Shown here in pieces: positions 1 to 2,097 of a DNA stretch of 64,000 nucleotides (position 1 is the stretch's first letter; every line of letters starts with the position of its first letter). The translations under genes and the position numbers were made by a program. Source of the DNA: an uncultured Synergistales bacterium (GTDB lineage: Bacteria > Synergistota > Synergistia > Synergistales > Aminobacteriaceae); contig CAJOGI010000008.1 in NCBI GenBank assembly GCA_905234075.1, forward strand, positions 1-64,000. The letters are read 5' to 3'. The notes beneath the pieces were generated by a model. It made no database searches, was not told the origin of the DNA, and saw only the letters and a list, made by a program, of their open reading frames with translations.

Positions 1-1268
1 GGCTTGGGCTCTTCTTTAACTTCGGGCTCAACGGCTGGCGCAGGCTCTTCAACAGGAGCAGTAACTACAGCCTCGACTGGAGCTGCCTCTTCAGCTTTCA
101 CTTCTTCAGCTTTAGGAGCTTCGACCTTAGCTTTAGATTTAGAGCTAGATTTTTTCGGCTTCGCGTCTTTTTTAGTCTTGGACTTTACCGGCTTGGGCTC
201 TTCTTCAGTTTCAGGTTCCGGCTGCGTAAAGGCAGATGCAGAATTAGGGGCAAGCGAATAGCCGAGCTCTCTTAGTTTATCTTCAATTTCATCCAGCGAT
301 TTTTTCCCAAGATTACGAACTTTCAGCAAGTCATCATGTGATCTGCTAAGTAAGTCAGATACAAGCTTAATGCCGCCTCTTAATAAACAGTTTTCACTTC
401 TTATTGAAAGTTCTAAATCGTGAATATTATGCGTCAAGAACAGATCCGGATCAGGTCTTGACAGCACTACTACCGGCTCCTCAACAAGAGGCGGCTTTAC
501 AGGCGCAACATGAGGGGCTGTGTTTACGGTATCAGCTACTCTGGCAAAATACGTCTGAGCAATTCTTGATGCCTGCCCTACAGCCTCTTCGGGCGAAATT
601 GCGCCATTCGTCCAAACTTCTAATATAAGTCGCTCGTAATCAATGCTCTGTCCGACTCTTGCCGGCTCGATTTGATAATTAACTCGTTTGACCGGAGAAA
701 ATATTGCATCAGTTAAAAGTGCGTCAACAGGAAGCTGCGGCTGTGCAGGTCTTTCACGCTCAGCGGACAAATAACCGACTCCCTGCGCAATATAAATTTC
801 CATCACCAAATGAGCACCGGGCTCAAGAGTACATAAGACACCGTCGCCGCAAAATTCAAAATCGCTATCCCAAGACAGATCCTTTGCCGTAATAACTCCC
901 GGATTTTCCGCACGATTAAACAAATCTCTGTCTTTTTGCAGTTCATCGGAATCCAAAGTAATAACTTTGAAGGTTTCAACATTTAAGCTGTCATTGTCAG
1001 GATTTGTCTTTACCTTTATAGGAATATGTTTTAAGTTCATTAAGATCTCAATGACATCTTCACGAACACCGGGAATAGTGCTAAATTCGTGAAGTATTCC
1101 GTCAATCCTTACAGCAACAACAGCGGCCCCCCTGATTGATGAAAGGAGCAAGCGTCTCAACGCATTGCCGAGCGTGTCGCCGTAACCCCTTTCGAGAGGC
1201 TCAAGGTATAACCTTCCGTAATCTTGAGCTTTTTCTTCAATATAAACCTTAAAACTGGTGTTCTCCAA
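1..1268 (-). CDS. rpoA: RNA polymerase alpha subunit, 3' end outside window
   Basis: Alpha subunit that nucleates RNA polymerase assembly and contacts promoter DNA and activators. The reading frame starts at a TTG (1268-1266) with AAGGAG upstream and runs off the window without a stop. The N-terminal domain shows the LEPLERGYGDTLGNALRR signature near residue 20. The C-terminal domain shows LLRGGIKLVSDLL and KVRNLGKKSLDEIEDKL and ends near position 255. About 85 further residues follow, first Lys/Ser-rich (SKTKKDAKPKKSSSKSK) and then Glu/Ala/Pro/Val-rich. About 422 residues are visible, against roughly 315-340 for usual alpha subunits. It is the last visible gene of the minus-strand ribosomal cluster, 22 nt after rpsK, with no rpsD between. 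Confidence 0.95.
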   Translation of the reverse strand, partial: MENTSFKVYIEEKAQDYGRLYLEPLERGYGDTLGNALRRLLLSSIRGAAVVAVRIDGILHEFSTIPGVREDVIEILMNLKHIPIKVKTNPDNDSLNVETFKVITLDSDELQKDRDLFNRAENPGVITAKDLSWDSDFEFCGDGVLCTLEPGAHLVMEIYIAQGVGYLSAERERPAQPQLPVDALLTDAIFSPVKRVNYQIEPARVGQSIDYERLILEVWTNGAISPEEAVGQASRIAQTYFARVADTVNTAPHVAPVKPPLVEEPVVVLSRPDPDLFLTHNIHDLELSIRSENCLLRGGIKLVSDLLSRSHDDLLKVRNLGKKSLDEIEDKLRELGYSLAPNSASAFTQPEPETEEEPKPVKSKTKKDAKPKKSSSKSKAKVEAPKAEEVKAEEAAPVEAVVTAPVEEPAPAVEPEVKEEPK

Positions 1269-1290
1269 ATTCCAAAATCTCCTTTAGAAT

Positions 1291-1689
1291 TTAGACACGA
1301 CGCCTCTTTGGTGGTCTGCAGCCGTTGTGAGGAATGGGCGTAGCGTCTTTAATTAAGTTCACCTGAAGCCCTGCTGCCTGCAATGACCTAATCGCGCTTT
1401 CGCGTCCGGGGCCAGGTCCCTTGACGATAACGTCAATTTCCTGAACTCCCTGATCCTGTGCGGCCTTCGCGACCTGTGATGCAGCAGTCTGAGCGGCAAA
1501 CGGTGTTGATTTTCTTGCACCCTTGAAGCCGACGTTTCCGCCGCTTGCCCAAGTGATGATATTTCCGCCTTTGTCGCTGATGCACATAATTGTGTTGTTA
1601 AACGTCGAATAAATGTGCGCAACTCCGTAATTTATATTTTTCTTTTCGCGCCTTTTGCCTTTACGGGCCTGCGCTGTTCTCTTTGCCAA
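1291..1689 (-). CDS. rpsK: 30S ribosomal protein S11
   Basis: Small-subunit platform protein that binds 16S rRNA near the mRNA exit channel. It is 132 residues, the usual length, with a basic N-terminus ([10 protein letters not shown]), the core [20 protein letters not shown] and the conserved C-terminal [16 protein letters not shown]. It lies 30 nt downstream of rpsM with an AAGGAGG-type site before the ATG, and directly upstream of rpoA as in the alpha operon. Confidence 0.97.
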
Positions 1690-1719
1690 GTTTCATTTAC
1701 CTCCTTAATTCAAGCCGCT

Positions 1720-2097
1720 TTACTTCGTCGCCATCTTCTTGTTGGCAACTGTTCTTCTCGGACCTTTGCGCGTTCTAGCGTTGGTCTTTGTGCGCTGGCC
1801 TCTGACGGGAAGTCCGAGACGATGACGCTGGCCGCGATAACAGCCTATGTCAATTAAACGCTTGATGTTCATTGATATTTCACGTCTTAAATCGCCCTCG
1901 ACCTTGTAATTATCTTCAATTTCGCGGCGTAACTTCTGAGTATCCGCTTCCTCAAGGTCTTTAACTCTGATGTCAGGATTTACGCCGGTTGCCGCAAGAA
2001 TTTTCTGCGACGTTTTGAGGCCGATCCCGAAAATATACGTCAAGCCGATTTCAATTCTTTTATCTCTCGGCAAGTCCACACCTGCAATACGTGCCAT
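1720..2097 (-). CDS. rpsM: 30S ribosomal protein S13
   Basis: Small-subunit head protein contacting the P-site tRNA and 50S bridge B1. It is 125 residues and starts [20 protein letters not shown]. The central [20 protein letters not shown] and the basic tail [10 protein letters not shown] are typical. Its ribosome binding site AGGAGG is formed by the last two arginine codons of rpmJ just upstream, so the two genes are tightly linked for translation. Confidence 0.97.

Follow-up and report, generated by a model that had tools for sequence, protein, structure and literature searches.

A repeated, charged C-terminal tail on the RNA polymerase alpha subunit of an uncultured Synergistales bacterium and its relatives

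Among transcription proteins, the RNA polymerase alpha subunit is highly conserved, and it usually ends just past its C-terminal domain (CTD). The closest described counterparts of the alpha tail reported here are found on other polymerase proteins. In Bacillus subtilis, the delta subunit (RpoE) has an acidic disordered region that displaces nucleic acid, with a positively charged stretch ahead of the acidic region (PMC7749165). In delta, as is predicted for the alpha subunit described here, a long charged region without order is anchored to the polymerase through a folded domain. However, delta is a separate subunit with a HARE-HTH fold, lacks repeats and is strongly acidic overall, whereas the alpha tail consists of repeats and its charges nearly balance. 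The HARE-HTH domain (PF05066) was matched neither on alpha nor elsewhere in the host genome, and delta was not found in the genus under study, nor in most of the other, short-tailed Synergistales searched. A delta-like displacement of nucleic acid by the alpha tail is offered as an analogy only. The CTD of RNA polymerase II, a disordered repeat tail, has been linked to clustering (PMC9312465). It resembles the alpha tail, for which disorder is predicted, in being made of tandem repeats at the end of a core subunit, but it belongs to another subunit and is built from a heptad rather than a charged unit of 62 amino acids; the two are not homologous, and the likeness is one of layout only. In Escherichia coli, clusters of polymerase with NusA are held by weak contacts (PMC9312465). 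Those clusters, which also serve only as an analogy, are attributed to a factor, whereas the tails described here belong to core subunits, and NusA of the host genome carries no charged tail.

The DNA analysed (the window) is a stretch of 64,000 nucleotides that begins at base 1 of contig C8 (C8:1-64000) in genome G000, which comprises 1.84 Mb in 18 contigs. The rpoA gene, encoding alpha, occupies positions 3-1268 on the reverse strand, with 422 codons up to the contig end and its 3' end on contig C12 of the same genome. The start codon is TTG at 1268, with AAAGGAG just 5' of it. Matches to PF01193, PF01000 and PF03118, each above its own cut-off and in the order expected for RpoA, place the dimerization and insert domains between residues 23 and 238 and the CTD at residues 278-334 (window 267-437, reverse strand). 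The CTD is folded in an AlphaFold2 model, with a pLDDT of about 90. An rpsK-like open reading frame lies beside rpoA at 1291-1689. Thus far the gene resembles other bacterial rpoA genes, which share the three alpha domains, the conserved CTD and the gene order rpsK-rpoA-rplQ. The difference lies in the tail, which is usually a few residues long (a usual, not a defining, feature) and reaches at least about 160 residues in G000. Separately, rpsD is missing between rpsK and rpoA (window 1268-2097), unlike in the usual alpha operon.

CTD-like sequence stops at window position 252 with the residues LGYSL, and a further 83 residues without a stop run to base 1, in line with the original prediction of a frame open for some 85 residues past the CTD. 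On the reverse strand, the translation of this tail begins with an acidic leader, APNSASAFTQPEPETEEE (198-251), followed by a K/S-rich basic stretch, PKPVKSKTKKDAKPKKSSSKSKAKVEAPK (111-197), and an E/A/P-rich acidic stretch, AEEVKAEEAAPVEAVVTAPVEEPAPAVEPEVKEEPK (3-110), which is cut by the contig end. The latter two stretches are the halves of a repeat unit delimited from the array of a close relative (186 nt x 4.2). A Pfam search of the rpoA product returned no known domain downstream of residue 334. Residues 341-422 were modelled with a pLDDT of 36-48 and no secondary structure, a low confidence that is to be expected because the AlphaFold2 alignment contained no tail homologues.

The rest of the gene was sought and found at C12:3-230 (L032:3-230). 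The first 230 bases of C12 encode 76 residues that start inside a repeat unit and finish with KKTASKPRAKKAKTHTTNETNNNE and a stop codon; an rplQ-like open reading frame follows, as read by eye from the sequence and the expected gene order. Over the stretch shared by the two contigs (window 13-160), the repeat copies are identical at 145 of 148 nucleotides. The two copies differ, and therefore G000 contains at least two of them; the contig end at base 1 is an assembly break that most likely arose because of the tandem repeat. The two contig pieces (83 and at least 76 residues) put the G000 tail at no less than about 160 residues, and alpha would measure about 506 residues, by our estimate, if exactly two units are present.

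An intact rpoA gene is available in G007, an independent assembly from a close relative whose alpha core is 92% identical to that of G000. The alpha tail of G007 has 301 amino acids and contains 4.2 in-frame copies of a 186-nt (62-amino acid) basic-then-acidic unit that match at 93%, and the C-terminal end of alpha is nearly identical in the two genomes. The single basic-then-acidic tail originally described thus holds as regards its K/S-rich and E/A/P-rich blocks, but these form a tandem array of units (in G007, and as two copies in G000) behind an acidic leader, rather than one pair of blocks. A frameshift or assembly join near 255, which had been named as one finding that would undo the prediction, was not seen: the junction from CTD to tail at 252 is the same in G007, and the assembly break lies at base 1 instead.

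It is very improbable that the tail is an artefact of assembly or binning, such as a chimeric join or a frame that happens to be open at a contig end. The window does stop at a contig end, and a contig of G014 likewise ends within the alpha tail; nevertheless, the tail, its stop and rplQ were found on C12, the homologous gene in G007 is intact, alpha tails of at least 60 amino acids occur in many separate assemblies, and breaks within repeats are expected. The idea of a mobile or shared element was likewise rejected, as the sole other copy of the tail in the genome is its own continuation on C12. The presence of a long charged tail on alpha is confirmed. In G014 (C129, L006), the contig end falls, as in the window, past an acidic stretch that is turning basic. 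In G024 (C36:16500-21000, L038), alpha lies in two frames, an N-terminal part and then the CTD with a 111-amino acid tail, reflecting a frameshift or an assembly error.

Tail length was surveyed through a phylum-wide search of 188 genomes, with alpha tails measured in 73 loci. The genus of the window spans 21-324 amino acids. In the measured loci of other Synergistota genera, the tail has 4-49 amino acids; the exception is a second genus from the family of the window (G100-G103), with tails of 52, 67, 68 and 126. The 79 named alpha loci of other bacteria have a median tail of 5 residues, and their longest tail, 48 residues, comes from within that family. Ordinary alpha subunits do, as had been predicted, stop soon after the CTD, and the length survey and the unstructured model agree with the view that a disordered basic-then-acidic tail is not found on most of them. 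Relatives whose alpha ends at the CTD had been named as a possible refutation; short tails do exist in all but one of the other measured genera. On a tree of the alpha core, tails of at least 60 amino acids need about eight changes, at least four of which are forced by well-supported branches; the 60-amino acid cut was our own choice, and the changes do not tell gains from losses.

Tandem Repeats Finder located arrays with periods of 186 nt in G007, 183 in G013, 123 in G020, 114 in G009, 111 and 87 in G015, 60 in G005 and 36-81 in G103. Differing long arrays are thus present in at least five species besides G007, and the periods from 36 nt upwards are all multiples of three. Synonymous differences (pS) between units amount to 0.03-0.14 within G007 and 0.06 within G000, but to 0.19-0.25 between the two species, as expected if unequal exchange or slippage homogenizes the arrays. 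Several lineages have built different in-frame alpha-tail arrays, the tail having grown repeatedly by tandem duplication.

Such growth could also occur without function. A short acidic alpha end, present across the order, may tolerate in-frame slippage and duplication and so lengthen and shrink by near-neutral drift, a serious rival to a functional tail that we regard as possible though somewhat doubtful. The 21-324 amino acid range and the eight or so changes at the 60-amino acid cut favour it, whereas the retention of frame in the arrays, together with their charge blocks, speaks against it. Substitution rates fall on both sides. Between G000 and G007, the two closest species, the repeats keep their protein sequence, contrary to drift: their dN/dS is 0.10-0.20, near the 0.136 of the N-terminal domain with its linker (the CTD has 0.026), and replacements are in shortage (binomial P 0.0008-0.011 in four comparisons that are not independent). 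Array homogenization blurs orthology, and the low repeat dN/dS therefore supports, but does not prove, constraint on the repeat protein sequence in this pair. In nine other species pairs, tail dN/dS ranges from 0.20 to 0.93 and exceeds that of the core in every pair, and units within the G020 array differ from one another at ratios of 0.73-1.02; the pair values of up to 0.93 and the G020 ratios count in favour of drift.

The charge pattern was analysed in the same tails. Single-base replacements stay within a charge class slightly more often than they should by expectation (P 0.01-0.04 across mutation models), against drift. No depletion of charge sign flips was seen in the tails, and strong selection against such flips was rejected. 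The alpha tail is nearly charge-balanced overall, and in most tails of at least 60 residues positive and negative charges fall into separate blocks more strongly than in shuffled sequences; the two pieces of the G000 tail reach z values of 3.0-3.8 at a 20-residue scale. Segregation beyond shuffles was not found in the long tails of G009, G103, G019 and G097.

The good preservation of the repeat between two species would also suit an arm that serves mainly as a docking platform for a single partner, be it a regulator or a protein of the ribosome or nucleoid, instead of for nucleic acid and polymerases in general, and a basic motif resembling KKSSSKxKxKAE recurs in several species. However, the arrays are unlike in sequence between species and no genus-wide shared motif fit for a single partner was found, so that we consider docking of this kind improbable.

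Charged segments are not confined to alpha. A proteome comparison sampled 596 kb of G000, a third of the genome, with 531 gene proxies. In this sample, segments of at least 58 amino acids that are charged and of low complexity were found on alpha, in an insertion in beta-prime, on a 207-amino acid protein that is probably omega, and on two proteins with membrane- or signal-like starts. Among the sampled proteins without membrane or signal sequences, only alpha, beta-prime and omega carry them; a Fisher value of 1.6e-6 for this pattern was computed after the pattern was seen and is descriptive only. Proteome-wide low complexity was rejected as an explanation, with 10 segments per 531 gene proxies. 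In the short-tailed G030 there are two segments per 387 gene proxies, none of them on polymerase. The concentration of similar segments on polymerase subunits is a further point against near-neutral drift.

The 207-amino acid protein (C6:34271-34891, L192:14271-14891, reverse strand) has a charged tail of 136 amino acids that is acidic, then basic, then acidic. It is most likely omega, a name that rests on homology and neighbourhood because Pfam gives no match for the G000 protein: a homologue in G035 shows a weak match to PF01192 (E 0.03), and both proteins adjoin coaBC and priA, as read by eye. The omega tail is shorter than 25 amino acids in most species of the genus, long ones occurring mainly in one clade and in G099. 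Beta-prime (C1:103287-108665, L187:3287-8665, reverse strand) is interrupted ahead of its last conserved block by an insertion, acidic and of low complexity, that spans about 99 amino acids; across most of the genus, this insertion measures 16-128 amino acids. The lengths of the alpha, omega and beta-prime segments are correlated in raw form (Spearman 0.38-0.44). After correction for relatedness, alpha and omega are borderline (r 0.33, p 0.05) and no correlation is found between alpha and beta-prime; coordinated growth of the three arms is accordingly not claimed.

Several other charged or repetitive sequences were observed. Beta (in L187) has an acidic C-terminal stretch of roughly 40 amino acids, and the N-terminus of a sigma factor (C3, L352) is basic, then acidic. 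A SurA/PpiD-like protein of G000 (L188:6527-7891) has a charged tail of about 107 amino acids, and another G000 protein (L325:2840-4144) combines a signal-like start with two lysine-rich segments. In G009 (C1, L200:17979-18800), a 274-amino acid protein contains short repeats, weakly helix-turn-helix-like, with K/A/P-rich linkers between them.

The tail truly belongs to alpha. In the functional reading that we find best supported, and to which we give an even chance, it is a disordered, block-charged arm that tunes the contacts of polymerase with nucleic acid and with other polymerases. The arm is built from tandem in-frame copies of the 62-amino acid unit, in which a basic K/S-rich half is joined to an acidic E/A/P-rich one, and since it extends from the alpha-CTD, itself on a flexible linker, each polymerase would bear two such arms, in addition to the omega tail and the beta-prime insertion as further charged parts. 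The basic blocks may touch DNA or RNA weakly and regardless of sequence, and may also contact acidic blocks on neighbouring polymerase subunits, while the acidic blocks would compete with nucleic acid. Jointly, the two block types could tune how polymerase is retained, released and locally clustered, and the copy number of the unit would set the strength of the effect. The open frame, the junction, the repeats, the length variation, the constraint in one species pair, the charge blocks, the predicted disorder and the omega and beta-prime segments are observed, and each functional step is inferred from them. In favour of the arm count the recurrence of junction and repeat in an independent assembly, the low repeat dN/dS in one species pair, the differing in-frame arrays of other species, the charge blocks, the predicted lack of structure, the concentration of such segments on alpha, beta-prime and omega in the sampled sequence, and the absence from the genus of delta, which is known for an arm of this kind. 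Against it count the hypervariable length among close species, the tail dN/dS above that of the core in other pairs, the undepleted sign flips, the four long tails without charge segregation, the borderline length correlation between alpha and omega and the lack of one between alpha and beta-prime, and the absence of delta from most short-tailed Synergistales as well. A bolder version, in which alpha, omega and beta-prime jointly acquired charged disordered arms and the expandable alpha array is laid out like the CTD of RNA polymerase II, its repeat number setting the strength of clustering or retention, seems to us unlikely.

The original interpretation is partly supported: the predicted disorder of a basic-then-acidic tail that most alpha subunits lack, its charge blocks and the constraint on the repeat between two species agree with it, and any effect of the tail on UP-element binding, regulators or polymerase clustering is a prediction. 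The tandem array, the 21-324 amino acid range in the genus, the contig break and the comparable segments on omega and beta-prime go beyond it. No published description of such an alpha tail was found in a search that was sparse in subscription journals, and this is weak evidence of novelty. The interest of the tail lies in its repeats, in the several forms that have arisen and in its counterparts elsewhere on the core enzyme. Taken as a whole, the findings suggest, without proving it, that the charged segments on alpha, omega and beta-prime tune the hold of polymerase on DNA, RNA or other polymerases. A genus in which the end of alpha has repeatedly been rebuilt from differing arrays, together with the omega and beta-prime arms, offers natural length variants of 21-324 amino acids. 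Such variants could show if disordered tails, when carried by nothing but the core enzyme, alter promoter binding, recycling or clustering of polymerase in bacteria.
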